Shown: in pieces, positions 1 through 54,953 of the stretch
How positions within the stretch are numbered: position 1 is the first letter of the stretch
How the letters are laid out: each line of letters opens with the position of its first letter
Source: a virus
Strand: one strand, 5' to 3'
DNA length: 55,953 nt
Virus record (IMG/VR): IMGVR_UViG_3300009136_000007
Span: 1-55,953 of that record
Program-made: the position numbers and the translations under genes
Notes under the pieces: generated by a model
Database searches by the model: none
Seen by the model: the letters and a program-made list of their open reading frames with translations, nothing else
What the model was told of the DNA's origin: nothing

Positions 1-187
1 ATCAAAGAGTGGCCGTAATAAGTTTGCAAGAAATATATAGAAAAGAAGAGCGAAGTGCAGAGTTTCTACGGAGTGCTATACACAAGGTGCATTACCTTGA
101 GTTTGTTGTAGGACGGAGTCTACTCTTCCGATTCTATTTCAAGATCAGGCCAATATGTTTTATTAGATTATCTTACGAGTGTAGTAG
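1..187. other. Unassigned left end, possible structured non-coding segment
   Basis: No convincing gene was found here. The plus-strand open frame at 9-191 has an unlikely composition and no leader like the real genes. A perfect 6-bp inverted repeat, CAAGGT/ACCTTG, lies at 83-99. The stretch looks less A/T-skewed than the neighbouring spacers. If the genome is circular, this is the gap in the leftward operon between the gene at 188-418 and the gene whose ATG spans the junction. It could be an untranslated RNA region or simple spacer; nothing decides between them. Confidence 0.3.
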
Positions 188-418: not shown

Positions 419-798
419 AAGTAAAATATTTAAAGTTATTATTAAGTTAGTATTAATTAGTTACATAGATATTATCAATGTGATATCGTAAAAAGTTAGT
501 ATAAAAAAAGATAAATAAAATGTTAAAAAGATATTGTGTAATGTATTGGAAATCAAGTATATATATGCAAAAATCTTAAAAAACAAGGGGGGCCCGTAAT
601 TTGAAAACGTAAAAGGTAAAACGCTGAAAACCAGGAAGTTAGGGGGCAACGCTATGGTTCCCTATATCTAATAAGTTTTAAAAACAGTGACATAAGCCTG
701 TTAAGGTTATATAGTAAGGGGCTATTGTCACACTTTTAGTATTGTTAAACCGTAGTTGCAAGAACAAGTAAATAACCGCTTTTTCGTGTAAGTATATA
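419..798. other. Divergent intergenic control region
   Basis: About 380 bases without a credible gene, lying between the leftward gene at 188-418 and the rightward arm starting at 799. It contains G-runs (ggggggccc near 590-596, agggggc near 645), a weak hairpin around 644-666, and the long dyad element at 687-731. This is the only large spacer in the window. By position it should hold the promoters for both arms and possibly a replication origin; this is inference. The minus-strand frame at 461-649 is hydrophobic low-complexity sequence and was rejected as a gene. Confidence 0.6.
687..731 (+). promoter_or_regulatory. 45-bp dyad element, left copy
   Basis: Imperfect inverted repeat GTGACA-TA-AGCC ... 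GGGGCT-AT-TGTCAC with an A/T-rich centre. It ends 67 bases before the ATG at 799. Read in the direction of the downstream gene, its right half closely matches the element at 54091-54134 read on the minus strand: 21 of 24 bases agree over the stretch ending in TGTCAC. Likely an operator for a dimeric DNA-binding protein, a structured 5' leader RNA, or an origin motif. The HTH protein encoded beside the other copy is an obvious candidate ligand (inference). Confidence 0.6.
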
Positions 799-1419
799 AT
801 GTATAACACTAACATTAATACTATGGCTTATAAAAAAGAAAGTCCGATATACATGTATGCTAATACAAATAGTATGGACGAAAAAAACAAAGTTGGACCT
901 AAGGTAGGTGGTTCAGTAAGTGGTAAAACATTTTCAAAGAAAAGAATACAGGAATACAAAGATAGAAACTGGGCTATGGATCACACGACCCATTCTGCAA
1001 TTGCAGCCCCAAAACCACCACAGGCAAAGAACAATATTACGCCGACACCATATTTTCCTGATAACAAAGCTAAAACCCCTGAAACTAAAGCTACTAAAGT
1101 CGAAGCTACTGAAGTCAAAGCTACTAAAGGTTTGGTAAAGCAAAAAGCTAAAGCTATTGAAACTGTAAAGTCAACAAGTATAACAGGAGTAGCTCAAAGA
1201 CCAAAAGCAGAGTCTATTAAGTTAGCGAGCCCAAAGCAAGGATTAGTAGGTAAAAAAGATACAATAGTCAAATCAAAGGCTCCAAAATCTACAAAACTTA
1301 CTAGATCTCAGAAATTAAGAGCTAAGGGAGAAGAGGCTTTAGCTAGTGGTAATAAATTAAAAGCTAGAAGAATCAGAAAAAGATACGATAGAGCAGTTGC
1401 TCGTGAAGCTAAAAAATAA
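799..1419 (+). CDS. Lys/Ala-rich basic protein, unknown function
   Basis: A 206-residue, strongly basic, low-complexity protein. Its middle holds Thr/Lys/Ala repeats (KATKVEATEVKATKG), and it has a basic C-terminus (KLKARRIRKRYDRAVAREAKK). It is the first gene of the rightward arm. An internal ATG at 823 gives MAYKKESP, which resembles the start of the miniprotein at 11803 (MYGKKESP) and may be the true start. There are no membrane segments or enzyme motifs. Such a basic composition fits a virion-packaged or nucleic-acid-binding protein, but this is inference. The next gene follows after 5 bases. Confidence 0.7.
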   Translation: MYNTNINTMAYKKESPIYMYANTNSMDEKNKVGPKVGGSVSGKTFSKKRIQEYKDRNWAMDHTTHSAIAAPKPPQAKNNITPTPYFPDNKAKTPETKATKVEATEVKATKGLVKQKAKAIETVKSTSITGVAQRPKAESIKLASPKQGLVGKKDTIVKSKAPKSTKLTRSQKLRAKGEEALASGNKLKARRIRKRYDRAVAREAKK

Positions 1420-8569: not shown

Positions 8570-10126
8570 ATGTCAGACAAAATTGTCAAAAACCTCAATT
8601 TTGGGGAAGACGCCAAGACAACGGTGTTTAAGGGAATAAAAAAGCTAACAAAAGCTGTTAGCTCTACTTTAGGGGCTAGTGGTAAATGCGTTATCTTAGA
8701 AGATGGTAGTGGTAAACCAGTTATCACCAAGGACGGTGTAACAGTTGCTGACTCAATAGTCTTGCTGGATCCTGTGGAAAACATGGGAGCAACTCTTCTA
8801 AAAGAAGCAGCTAGAAAAACAGTTAAAGAAGCTGGTGACGGAACAACTACAGCTACCGTACTTGCTCACTCAATACTTAAGCAAGCTTACAAACTAGACA
8901 AAGACTATAACAGCAGAGATTTAAAAAACGGTATTAACAACGCTGTTGAAAAAGTAGTCAAGTACTTAGAGAAAAACTCTATTCAAGTAACAGGTGATAT
9001 GATTGACTCTGTGGCTACTATATCAACAAACAACGATCCAGTTTTAGGTAAGGTTATTGGAGATGCTTTTAGGTCAGTAGGAGAGACCGGAGTGGTTATG
9101 ATGGAGCCAACTAATGAATCTGAGACTTATGTTGACGTTGTTGATGGTGTTCAATACGATAAAGGGTTAACAAATTCTAACTTTGTAACTAACAAATCAA
9201 CAAAAGAAGCTGTGCTTGATAATCCTTTAGTGTTACTAGTAGATTCACCTATTGAAAGTATTAGACAAATACAGTCAGTTCTTGAATATGTTATTAAAAA
9301 TACAAAGTCACTACTTATTGTTGCTGATATAGATCAACCGGTTTTATCAGCTTTAGCCATGAACAAGGTAAAGGGTAATATAAAAGTAAACGTTATTAAT
9401 GCGCCTACTTTTGGTATCAACAAAAAAGATACACTAACGGACTTATCTATGTTAACTGGAGCTACTGTCATCAACGAAGATCTTGGAGATGATTTAGATC
9501 TTATATCGGTAGACAAACTAGGAGAATGTGTTAGAAGTGTAACTGGTGAACAAGATACTATTATACAAATAAAAGAAACACCAGAGGAAGTAAATGAGCT
9601 TATTCGCAAAATTAAAGAACAGCTTGAGACTGAAAAATCTCCTGCAAATGTTATACGACTTGAAACTAGACTTGCACGTTTATCTGCTAAGGTTGCAATT
9701 GTCAAGGTTGGAGCGAACTCAGACATTGAACTTAAAGAAAAAACAGACAGAGTCGAAGACGCTATCTGCGCTACAAAAGCCGCAATCAAAGAAGGTATAA
9801 TCCCAGGAGGAGGTATTGCTCTGCTCAACGCGTCTACATATACAAAAGCTAAAAGCAAAGGTGAAGAAGTTTTACTAGAAGCTATAAAAGCTCCTTACGA
9901 AACTATTCTTTCCAATGCTGGTTTAGAATTAGTTTATCCTGACAAGAAAAATAGAGGGCTAAATGTGGTTACAGGAAAAGACGTAAATATGGTACGAGCT
10001 GGTATTATCGATCCATTACTGGTTACTAAGAGTGCTTTAAAGAACGCGGCTTCAGTAGCTACAACCATACTATCAACCGATTGTGTAATCAATAACTTAA
10101 GAGTAGGAGATGAAAGCAATAGGTAG
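8570..10126 (+). CDS. groEL: Chaperonin GroEL (60 kDa, phage-encoded)
   Basis: A 518-residue group I chaperonin covering the full length of the family except the C-terminal tail. It keeps the ATPase signatures TKDGVTVA (53-60), GDGTTTAT (89-96; D90 matches the catalytic Asp87 of E. coli GroEL), RVEDAICATKAAIKEG and IPGGG, plus the late GIIDPLLVTKSAL segment. It lacks the flexible Gly-Gly-Met tail of bacterial GroEL and is about 25-30 residues shorter. It forms the folding ring for virion or replication proteins in the cytoplasm. Unusually, it lies before groES and overlaps it by 17 bases; bacterial operons normally have groES first. Confidence 0.95.
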   Translation: MSDKIVKNLNFGEDAKTTVFKGIKKLTKAVSSTLGASGKCVILEDGSGKPVITKDGVTVADSIVLLDPVENMGATLLKEAARKTVKEAGDGTTTATVLAHSILKQAYKLDKDYNSRDLKNGINNAVEKVVKYLEKNSIQVTGDMIDSVATISTNNDPVLGKVIGDAFRSVGETGVVMMEPTNESETYVDVVDGVQYDKGLTNSNFVTNKSTKEAVLDNPLVLLVDSPIESIRQIQSVLEYVIKNTKSLLIVADIDQPVLSALAMNKVKGNIKVNVINAPTFGINKKDTLTDLSMLTGATVINEDLGDDLDLISVDKLGECVRSVTGEQDTIIQIKETPEEVNELIRKIKEQLETEKSPANVIRLETRLARLSAKVAIVKVGANSDIELKEKTDRVEDAICATKAAIKEGIIPGGGIALLNASTYTKAKSKGEEVLLEAIKAPYETILSNAGLELVYPDKKNRGLNVVTGKDVNMVRAGIIDPLLVTKSALKNAASVATTILSTDCVINNLRVGDESNR

Positions 10127-13462: not shown

Positions 13463-14067
13463 TGAAAAGTTTATTTGACTTTATCGTAAAACCAATTAAT
13501 AAGAGGTACGATACAGAGGTTAAAGTAGGTGACAAAAGCCTAATAACTAACACTAATACTGAAGACTTTAAAGCCGTAAGTAATAAAGCGATAGTAGTTT
13601 CAACTCCTTCAGCTTATTCAACACCTATAAAAAAGGGTGACGTGGTCATTATACACCACAATGTTTTTAGAAGTTTTTTTGATATTAGAGGCAAACGTAA
13701 AGACAGTAGGTCTAAATTCATAGATGATTTATACTTTTGTTCGCCTGACCAAATATACTTATACAATAGTGACGACACTTGGAATTCTTTTCAAGACCGT
13801 TGCTTTGTAAAACCGCTGTTAGATAACAATGATCTAACGCTGGATAAAGAGAGAAAGCTTATAGGAATACTAAAATATGGTAATAGTTCCTTAGAAGCTC
13901 TTAAAATCGTTCCTGGTGACCTAATAGGTTATACTCCGTATGGTGAGTTTGAATTTGTGATTGATGGTGAACGATTATATTGTATGAAATCAAATGATAT
14001 TGCAATCAAATATGAATATAAAGGAGACGAAAAAGAATATAATCCTAGCTGGGCAAAAAGCGGTTGA
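13462..14067 (+). CDS. Two-domain GroES-like protein (possible second co-chaperonin)
   Basis: A 201-residue protein that looks like two GroES-type folds in tandem. Repeat 1 (about residues 8-103): a VKPINKRYDTEV opening strand, AIVVSTP, IKKGDVVIIHHNV, and a closing DQIYLY. Repeat 2 (about 112-187): DRCFVKPL, LIGILKYG, IVPGDLIGYTPYGEFEFVID and LYCMKSNDIAIKYEY. This follows the GroES order: strand, variable loop, VxxGDxVxF, then dG-x-x-[YL]-x-x-x-x-x-x-DI. No canonical GGIxL mobile loop is evident in either half. It may be an alternative cap for the GroEL ring, a T4 gp31-like factor, or a structural use of the fold. Assignment is by pattern only; the TAATG start is coupled to the previous gene. 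Confidence 0.5.
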   Translation: MKSLFDFIVKPINKRYDTEVKVGDKSLITNTNTEDFKAVSNKAIVVSTPSAYSTPIKKGDVVIIHHNVFRSFFDIRGKRKDSRSKFIDDLYFCSPDQIYLYNSDDTWNSFQDRCFVKPLLDNNDLTLDKERKLIGILKYGNSSLEALKIVPGDLIGYTPYGEFEFVIDGERLYCMKSNDIAIKYEYKGDEKEYNPSWAKSG

Positions 14068-52517: not shown

Positions 52518-52591
52518 TCGTTTGTTTTTAAATTGCTTATTATTATAATTACATATTTTGATTAAGTTTTACGGCTTATTTTGCATTTAAC

Positions 52592-53353
52592 TTAAAGATA
52601 ATCAAGCACTTGCGAGTGATCTACATTATCAATTAGTTTTTGTACTGCCGACTTTTTTAGCTCACTTACACGTACATAATTACTGTTACCTTCTATATTT
52701 AATTCTGCCGCTATTTCTTTAGCAGAATGCTTTTCACAGTCTAAACCGTAACTTAATCTTAATACCTCGTATTCTTTTTCGTTTAGATGTTTTTGCAATA
52801 AACCTTTTAAGTATATATTTAACAACTGTATATTGTAAGGTTCTGACTTATCAGGTATTTGATACATCATATTCTCGTCATCGTCATTAGTAACTTGAGC
52901 GTCTATAGATAAAAATACGGAATTAAAAAACATAGCAACCATTTTTTTATCTTTAGGGTTTTTACGTATCTCATTTAGTTTATGTTCTGGTATACGTATG
53001 TCTCCCCTATTGATGTCTATACGTCTTCTAATGGCTCCTTTTATACGTTTCGACAGAAAGCTTTTCAAAGTTTTTTCTGGATCATCAGACTCAACAACTC
53101 TTAGTATCTCTAATTTGTCAACAGCTTTAACTAAAGCTTCACTACCTATTTGTATTAAATCATTTATAGATAAAACACCTGAAGCTTGCTGTGATGTTGA
53201 AAACTTTCGAGCTAAATTTTCTACTAATGGTAAAAACTTAACTATAAGTTCGTCTCTAGTATACTCGTCCCAGAATTTACCTTCGATATTTACTATAGAT
53301 GTTTTAACATCTTCTTTATATCTGATGTAGTTTTGTATGTTATATTTCTTCAT
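52592..53353 (-). CDS. RNA polymerase sigma factor, sigma-70 family
   Basis: A 253-residue phage sigma factor. Region 2 (about 34-112): FLPLVENLARKF, DLIQIGSEALVKAVDKLE, FLSKRIKGAIRRRI. A RIPEH motif (120-124) marks the following sigma-3-like linker. Region 4 (about 183-242): helix-turn-helix with LNEKEYEVLRLSYGLDCEKH and SAKEIAAELNIEGNSNYVRV. It should redirect host RNA polymerase to phage promoters. No phage RNA polymerase was found, so it is a central timing factor. The start overlaps the end of a 46-residue gene. Confidence 0.85.
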   Translation of the reverse strand: MKKYNIQNYIRYKEDVKTSIVNIEGKFWDEYTRDELIVKFLPLVENLARKFSTSQQASGVLSINDLIQIGSEALVKAVDKLEILRVVESDDPEKTLKSFLSKRIKGAIRRRIDINRGDIRIPEHKLNEIRKNPKDKKMVAMFFNSVFLSIDAQVTNDDDENMMYQIPDKSEPYNIQLLNIYLKGLLQKHLNEKEYEVLRLSYGLDCEKHSAKEIAAELNIEGNSNYVRVSELKKSAVQKLIDNVDHSQVLDYL

Positions 53354-53480
53354 AATTAACTGGTAAGTTATTAATAATATCTTGTTCTAGTTTTTCTACT
53401 TTATTTATCAAGTATGTGTTATCTGATTGTACTACTTTTAATATAGTTTTTATTTCCTCTATTCTTTCTAAAGTAGTCAT
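53340..53480 (-). CDS. Small coiled-coil protein (46 aa)
   Basis: A 46-residue gene bridging the HTH gene (ATGA overlap at 53477-53480) and the sigma gene (14-base overlap). MTTLERIEEIKTILKVVQSD with INKVEKLEQDIINNL forms an amphipathic helix. A possible sigma-binding peptide or anti-sigma by position, but nothing in the sequence proves it. Overlaps at both ends support it as real. Confidence 0.55.
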   Translation of the reverse strand: MTTLERIEEIKTILKVVQSDNTYLINKVEKLEQDIINNLPVNYEEI

Positions 53481-54097
53481 AGTTGCTGATTTAAAAGTTC
53501 TTTTTCTTTCTTAAGTTCATTACTCATGTTTCTATGTATTGTTCTAGCCGAGCAACTAAGTAAATTAGCTAGTCTAGTTATTGTTATTTTTTTACCTAAT
53601 TCATTAATATCTAACATGCATTGATATATATCATCTTCATGTATCTTTTTACTTTTACCGACCATAGCTCCAACTATAATCATTTTTTCCTTGGTAGATA
53701 AACCGCTACCATCTCTGAATATTATTTTTCTTAATTTATTCTTTGGTGGTTGTTCTAAATCTAACATGCTAACCTCATAAACTATACTATTTAAACTATG
53801 TTTATTAATAGTAAAAGTTACAAAGCCAGAGATCTTGTTACAGATATGTTTAGCTAAATCATTAAAGCCGTCAGGATCTAGCTGAGGGTTTAAATACCAT
53901 AAAACCAATAGATGCCATTTTAAACTACGGTATGTAGTTATTTTAGCTTTACTCCTAAACAACTCGTAACATTGATAAGTCCCATCTACGTAGTAACTAC
54001 CCCAAGAATAAACTTCAGTAGGTTTATCTGTTGTAGGACTACGTCTGTAGACTATCTTTCTTCGATGTAAGTATTCTAGGTTTCTTATGTGTGACAT
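53477..54097 (-). CDS. HTH DNA-binding protein, possible regulator or replication initiator
   Basis: A 206-residue basic protein. The C-terminus (about 170-205) has a clear helix-turn-helix: KKITITRLANLLSCSARTIH followed by RNMSNELKKE. The N-terminal part includes an aromatic, Arg-rich stretch (YLHRRKIVYRRSPTTDKPTE) and a folded middle. The ATG sits inside the dyad element 54091-54134, and a second copy of that element precedes the rightward arm. It may therefore regulate itself and the late arm, or start replication at the dyads. The function is inferred; the motif is seen. Confidence 0.65.
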   Translation of the reverse strand: MSHIRNLEYLHRRKIVYRRSPTTDKPTEVYSWGSYYVDGTYQCYELFRSKAKITTYRSLKWHLLVLWYLNPQLDPDGFNDLAKHICNKISGFVTFTINKHSLNSIVYEVSMLDLEQPPKNKLRKIIFRDGSGLSTKEKMIIVGAMVGKSKKIHEDDIYQCMLDINELGKKITITRLANLLSCSARTIHRNMSNELKKEKELLNQQL

Positions 54098-54134
54098 TAG
54101 CCCCCTACTATTTAATATTAGGGGCTGTTGTCAC
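54091..54134 (-). promoter_or_regulatory. 44-bp dyad element over the HTH start codon, right copy
   Basis: On the minus strand: GTGACA-AC-AGCCCC, an A/T-rich centre, GGGGCT-AA-TGTCAC; two 6-bp arms on each side of a 2x2 mismatch. In RNA, the HTH AUG (54097) would lie in the 3' arm and the stop of the 45-residue upstream gene in the loop. It shares 21 of 24 bases with the left copy (687-731) in the conserved half. Operator, autoregulatory RNA hairpin or origin are all possible. Confidence 0.65.
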
Positions 54135-54245
54135 AGTTCCTGTTTTATTTAAGTTACAGAAAATAATATTTTCTTTTAAGAAAATTGTTTTAGACTGTAA
54201 TTCTTCCTGTCTTAACTTTTCGAATAATTGTTTTGTTTTACCCAT
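54108..54245 (-). CDS. Leader-like small protein (45 aa)
   Basis: A 45-residue gene directly ahead of the HTH gene. MGKTKQLFEKLRQEELQSKT, then a hydrophobic/aromatic IFLKENIIFCN, and a Thr-rich end. Its last codons form the 5' arm and loop of the dyad element, and its TAG lies 10 bases before the HTH ATG. Ribosomes finishing it would open the hairpin and could allow translation of the HTH gene, a classic coupling layout. Whether the peptide itself matters is unknown. Confidence 0.5.
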   Translation of the reverse strand: MGKTKQLFEKLRQEELQSKTIFLKENIIFCNLNKTGTVTTAPNIK

Positions 54246-54471: not shown

Positions 54472-54953
54472 AATTCGTTGATGTTAGATGGACGTATAAT
54501 TTTCTGCTCATTTTTGTTTCTTATGTTTTGTTTTTCTTGTTCGTAATAATTCCAGTAAGCTAACAGGCTATTGTCACTTACTTTGTACTCTTCAGGCATA
54601 CACTGTGGTGGTTCTGTAAAACCGTTATCAGGCATACCAACAGGCGGTTTAGCCAATGCTTCACGACATTTTTCAATACTCATATGATACTTATTGTATC
54701 TAACTGTGTATTCTTTGCCGATAGCAAGCATGTGCTCATATAACCAGTTGTAATGATGTATACTTTCCCGCACCCAAATTGTAGACGGATGGTTTAGATG
54801 TGCTTTTTTATAAGGTACATTATCTCCATTGTCATATGCGTGATGCGCCGTGCAAAGCATTTGAGCACATTCTAAGATCATTTTGACTTTGTGTTTGTCA
54901 TAGAAGTAGCTAGCAGCTTTAACTGGGTTTGGGTGTAGGTAAAATATATTCAT
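54459..54953 (-). CDS. Pyrimidine-dimer DNA glycosylase/lyase family protein
   Basis: A 164-residue protein of the endonuclease V / pyrimidine-dimer glycosylase type. MNIFYLHPNPVKAASYFYDK is followed by HKVKMILECAQMLCTAHHA, the family start (no residue after the leader Met before the active N-terminal segment). NHPSTIWVRESIHHYNWLYE (about 53-72) is the central helix. Such enzymes excise UV damage and are common in sunlit marine phages. Related proteins also act on other lesions, so the exact substrate is not certain. Overlaps its neighbours at both ends by a few bases. Confidence 0.75.
   Translation of the reverse strand: MNIFYLHPNPVKAASYFYDKHKVKMILECAQMLCTAHHAYDNGDNVPYKKAHLNHPSTIWVRESIHHYNWLYEHMLAIGKEYTVRYNKYHMSIEKCREALAKPPVGMPDNGFTEPPQCMPEEYKVSDNSLLAYWNYYEQEKQNIRNKNEQKIIRPSNINELCKG

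Follow-up and report, generated by a model that had tools for sequence, protein, structure and literature searches.

A conserved inverted-repeat element in phage genomes, the putative operator of an HTH protein encoded next to a phage sigma factor

An inverted-repeat DNA element is present twice in the virus DNA of IMG/VR record IMGVR_UViG_3300009136_000007 (positions 1-55,953, the whole stretch analysed and hereafter called the window), once at the start of an HTH gene and once 5' of a late operon. The element is not private to this window. It belongs to an operator system widely conserved in a large group of uncultured Bacteroidota phages and is probably a binding site by which the phage controls when its genes are expressed. 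On balance, and as read from the sequences, we favour the element being an operator read by the phage-encoded HTH protein, which would autoregulate the HTH-sigma gene pair at one copy (B) and control, probably activate, the late promoter at the other (A).

Table 1. Features of the window that bear on the element, with strand and the basis or content of each
Feature	Position	Strand	Details
Element copy A	687-731	+	45 bp, GTGACATAAGCCTGTTAAGGTTATATAGTAAGGGGCTATTGTCAC; PWM 49.1 bits
Element copy B	54091-54134	-	44 bp, read on the minus strand GTGACAACAGCCCCTAATATTAAATAGTAGGGGGCTAATGTCAC; PWM 50.0 bits
Conserved block beside copy A	641-686	- (leftward)	TTAnATATAGGGgTATAGtGTTGCCCCC; TTAnATATAGGGGTATAGTGTTGCCCCC block; alignment of 51 left flanks
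Putative late promoter	768-798	+	GTAAA (768-772)-N14-TGTAAGTATATA (787-798); 29.7 bits
First gene of rightward late operon	823-1419	+	No known family
43-aa ORF, MGKTKQLFEKL...	54114-54245	-	Extends into left half of copy B
HTH protein gene, proposed element binder	53477-54097	-	206 aa; alignment, AF2 model
Sigma-70-family factor, behind HTH gene	52592-53353	-	Regions 2 and 4; Pfam, PHROG_351
Promoter motif behind sigma gene	52544-52572	-	GTAAA-N14-TGTAATTATA; 19.5 bits; no element there in the window

Both dyads lie where an earlier note on this DNA had placed them (Table 1), and its count of 21 identical bases among the outer 24 holds, with 10 of 12 on one side and 11 of 12 on the other. Copy A is an inverted pair of half-sites, GTGACANNAGCCTRTTA followed by its reverse complement, 5' of the late operon, and the dyad of copy B overlaps the ATG of the HTH gene. 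With up to one mismatch, GTGACANNAGCC is matched 7 times in the window against 1.5 expected, a number reached in none of 100 shuffles; the full dyad is found twice, and 60 copies of the window generated by a Markov model contain none. A matrix (PWM) built from 103 distinct element copies was used both for scanning and for orientation. It locates exactly two copies in the window, A and B. The copies of its training set score about 34-57 bits, and 2 Mb of random sequence, searched on both strands, gave no match above 18 bits. The element is internally asymmetric and both copies point to their downstream gene, so A and B are divergent; the common orientation that had been claimed for them, each relative to its own downstream gene, is borne out by the orientation matrix. 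Isolated exact half-sites GTGACANNAGCC were also observed within genes, at 54566-54577 (-), where the site extends as AGCCTGTTA, 17 bp matching a half-site, and at 13529-13540 (+).

Within IMG/VR, an exact-pattern scan places the element in at least 118 viral stretches. All of the listed matches are 44-46 bp long, though 29-59 was permitted, and copies recovered with a relaxed regular expression are likewise 44-46 bp. HTH protein relatives were collected independently, the motif playing no part in their selection, and these loci pooled with those of the pattern scan gave 142 HTH genes with sufficient upstream sequence. The element is at the start of the HTH gene in 139 of the 142; the motif thus recurs in related phages next to genes homologous to the HTH gene, which had been set beforehand as a test. 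Taken alone, the protein-fetched loci carry the element nearly universally at the HTH gene, often in diverged form. The three exceptions represent one virus type with one common insertion, which leaves the element 1.1 kb upstream of the HTH gene. Between the two in these loci (L188, L190 and L194, ~8864-9990) lie two ORFs, one of them an HNH-type endonuclease gene, and the HTH start is fused to inserted sequence.

Copies are few in each whole record, only two or three, consisting of one at the HTH gene (B) and one or two of the A type; scans over the full length of five whole records (60-64 kb) gave one to three elements each. Eleven element-bearing records of at least 58 kb were searched for the HTH gene, with a positive result in ten. 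The eleventh, G029, has a single element and ends inside its sigma gene, so that the HTH gene would lie beyond the record; it was set aside as a case of an element without HTH. In G040 the same copy stands at both ends of the record, as in a circular genome, and the two end copies therefore count as one. Copy A is positioned between leftward early genes and rightward late genes, and in relatives A and B are 6-8 kb apart. L131, L145, L148, L153, L171, L185 and others have a second A copy among early genes, at 0.2-2.9 kb from the other one and often without the late promoter motif. A degenerate copy also occurs directly behind the HTH gene, ahead of the next gene, at L128 4117 and L129 6129 (+).

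Downstream of many A copies a bipartite promoter-like motif, GTAAA-N14-TGTRAKTATA, is found. It occurs within 100 b of A in 71 of 149 distinct A copies, against 5% in shuffled sequence, with a mode at 22-26 b; about half of the A-type copies, many second A copies among them, are without a recognised promoter nearby. The best promoter site of the window is that behind copy A, at 55 bases, which is longer than usual. Measured from the end of A to the GTAAA box, the commonest arrangement has 3-7 bp and the window 36 bp. From the promoter and from relatives, the late ORF that follows probably starts at 823 rather than at 799. Helical phasing of the element-promoter distances, striking in the raw data, is driven by the main mode and after clustering is not significant for distances of at least 28 (p 0.12-0.35); it is only suggestive. 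Behind the sigma gene the motif recurs in 93 of 123 loci, at no more than 230 b and mostly at 20-60 b, whereas shuffled sequence has none; it there heads recombination and replication genes, i.e. Erf, exonuclease VIII and primase/helicase.

Four related isolates, Elemovirus, Panino, phi38:1 and MW202828, are without the HTH gene, the sigma gene and the element, no copy of the last being detected in them even at 12 bits. A weak profile match in Elemovirus (E 0.0009, high bias) was dismissed as probably spurious. Promoter sites of at least 15 bits are absent from three of these isolates and number one in Panino. That isolates without HTH, sigma and element are also nearly without the promoter supports the reading of the element as an operator.

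Other conserved blocks lie around copy A. The block to its left (Table 1) is possibly, on sequence grounds, a leftward early promoter with a 5' hairpin. It is followed on the leftward strand, beside copy A, by a GGGCCCCC-TTGTTTTTT block at 583-600. A conserved unit, GGAGTCTACTCTTCCGAnnCTATTTCAAnGTCAGGC, is found at window 107-155 (+), often with TGCTATACAC nearby, and L046, L049, L161, L170 and L171 have it close to second A copies; it is possibly a terminator, a small RNA or a promoter repeat.

The HTH of the protein encoded at copy B is C-terminal, at about residues 165-206, with R185, T186 and R189 invariant, and the AF2 model has a pLDDT of 91.7. In an alignment of 89 members HTH_11 is matched at the C-terminus of 87, at E up to 1, and generic HTH models match weakly. 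The window protein is assigned to no Pfam or PHROG family at E 0.001. No close sequence was found for it in PDB, and a PDB fold search with the model gave no match at E <0.001; the BFVD fold match is one viral relative (E 1.4e-9). Neither CI/Cro nor replication-initiator families are matched by the protein. Its gene was not found in isolate phages, and in bacterial genomes relatives are present only on MAG contigs, mostly short. Residues of the recognition helix, which hardly varies, were not found to covary with the operator, and the highest-ranking columns resemble lineage markers. The sigma factor has FliA as its best PDB match (E 1.6e-6). Its gene is downstream of the HTH gene on the same strand in all 133 loci with room for it, at no more than 600 b in 117.

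Sigma factors encoded by phages direct the polymerase of the host to promoters of the phage, a dyad just 5' of a -35 box is in the usual place for an activator, and a dyad that covers the start of the regulator gene itself is in the usual place for autoregulation. From these usual roles, the sigma factor would redirect host RNA polymerase to the GTAAA-N14-TGTRAKTATA promoters and open them, the middle ones heading replication genes and the late one heading the late operon. The HTH protein, as a dimer or a dimer of dimers, would bind the two inverted half-sites of about 17 bp that flank a 10-12 bp centre. At A it would activate, i.e. gate, the late promoter from upstream, and at B, which covers the start of the HTH gene and thus the head of the HTH-sigma gene pair, it would limit its own expression and that of the sigma gene. 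At A it may also hinder the leftward early promoter; if the conserved block beside A is such a promoter, binding could shut it off, in the manner of phi29 p4. With activation on the late side and hindrance on the early side, one protein would tie the end of early expression to the onset of late expression. The preference for activation over repression at A is a reading of the position of the site. Tentatively, and with doubt remaining on the larger side, the whole may be an undescribed module made up of an HTH activator of unknown fold, an unusually long single operator of two such half-sites and a sigma factor, in which element plus promoter would mark late genes and promoter alone middle genes.

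The same operator could instead be used by an HTH protein that is mainly a repressor at all copies, the late operon remaining off until displacement as in a lambda-like switch. We regard this as unlikely. It would agree with the overlap of B and the protein's own ATG, typical of autorepression, and with the place of A next to both the early-direction block and the late promoter. However, A ends 5' of the GTAAA box at the distances given above, so the late promoter is uncovered, and no sign of lysogeny was seen, with bacterial HTH relatives confined to MAG contigs and an integrase search that covered part of the ORFs. Distinctly unlikely is a binder other than the HTH protein, whether from the phage (its sigma factor or a further protein) or a regulator of the host, in which case the HTH gene would adjoin the element through operon layout only. 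The sigma gene is equally conserved and is also missing from the isolates that have no element, yet what recurs behind it is the promoter motif and not the element; a host regulator would not explain the restriction of the element to phages with the HTH gene.

Binding of a protein to DNA, rather than a role in RNA, is indicated by the way in which the two arms vary. In pair counts over the copies, the paired fraction at arm positions equals the shuffled value nearly throughout, C-A and A-C mismatches between the arms are common, and the two-base inner column pairs (NN/NN) are mostly unpaired. Constraint in each arm is concentrated on the core GAC...AG...TTA, which fits recognition of two half-sites, each about 17 bp long, by a protein. 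Judged from these alignments, the arms evolve as two independent DNA half-sites of that size and not as an RNA stem. Covariation in the stems had been proposed earlier as the check that would separate an RNA from a DNA role; with none above the shuffled level, it comes out for DNA. An RNA hairpin in a 5' leader, serving as a translational operator or as a put/nut-type antitermination element, is accordingly very improbable. As RNA, the window copies do form stable folds (-16.2 and -20.2 kcal/mol, z -3.9 and -5.8), because the DNA is symmetric, and B overlaps an ATG, but of three diverged copies two reach only moderate stability (z -2.0 and -2.9), A is 5' of the putative promoter and so would lie outside the late transcript, and Rfam has no match in the window. 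Despite the good folding of the window copies, the stem was rejected on the pair counts.

Half-sites of A and B are more alike within a genome (0.699) than across genomes (0.661, sd 0.0065; 0 of 2000 permutations), which fits a single trans-acting reader. Shared ancestry may contribute to this likeness. In several lineages position 6 has changed from A to G in the left arm of B and in A alike, the right arm of B retaining its A because that base belongs to the ATG. B lies partly within ORFs in most genomes, and coding constraint thus contributes there: in 98 of 139 copies B is entered from upstream by an ORF that has 20 codons or more.

Of the two roles that the earlier note had offered, the operator pair is supported by the presence of the element at the HTH start across loci and by arms that behave as DNA half-sites, while the phage-specific origin gains no support, given one copy at an ORF start, others 5' of a promoter and an HTH protein with no replication-initiator match. 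A replication origin, an initiator iteron or a recombination or packaging site is very improbable: the dyad is near the point of transcription divergence and inverted copies flank the early region, but B is 6-8 kb away in relatives, late-side A and B keep their relative orientation in the listed loci so that no segment inversion is seen, the half-sites are 20-22 bp apart, unlike tyrosine-recombinase cores, and the terminase gene is about 14 kb off.

Known phage switches resemble parts of the favoured arrangement of operator, HTH protein and sigma factor. Lambda CI and Cro act at clustered 17-bp operators. As with the lambda pair, the regulator gene adjoins operators that would control divergent programmes; unlike lambda, the sites are single, of 44-46 bp and kilobases apart, no CI/Cro family match exists and lysogeny is not indicated by the ORFs scanned. 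The p4 protein of Bacillus phage phi29 binds imperfect, pseudo-symmetric inverted repeats between early and late promoters (A2c-A2b-A3), where it activates the late promoter and represses the early ones; its sites are CTTTTT-15 bp-AAAATG, and p4, a novel fold forming an elongated dimer with an N-hook, works with p6 (PMC3100819). Here too an inverted-repeat site lies between early and late promoters, the early one being putative. The consensus of the 103 copies differs from CTTTTT-15-AAAATG, with half-sites of about 17 bp and G/C cores, and the protein has a C-terminal HTH and no p4 fold match in the PDB fold search. In contrast to phi29, the start codon of the regulator itself is covered by a copy, and the phage encodes a sigma factor. 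By analogy, the closest functional parallel to the module would be phi29 p4 joined to the sigma system of a phage; no sequence relation to p4 is claimed.

In the phiEco32-like phage 7-11, the late promoters of sigma gp47 are GTAAtg-(16)-aCTA (PMC8948821). The two systems share a phage-encoded sigma-70-family protein and a bipartite promoter with a GTAA -35 part and late genes behind it, and a repeated phage-specific promoter motif 5' of late genes is present here. GTAAA-N14-TGTRAKTATA is similar to the 7-11 promoter in its -35 part. The abstract on 7-11 describes no upstream dyad operator; in the present phages, HTH and sigma genes invariably come as a pair.

In the open-access literature no description of the element, the HTH protein or the promoter was found. 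To our knowledge, very little has been established about how uncultured Bacteroidota phages control transcription. The present analysis yields an operator together with a candidate regulator, and a promoter consensus together with a candidate sigma factor, across more than 118 genomic stretches. Since operator, regulator, sigma factor and promoter recur across phages, early, middle and late genes become predictable from sequence. The system would be a second phage solution to the early/late switch, unrelated to that of phi29 p4.
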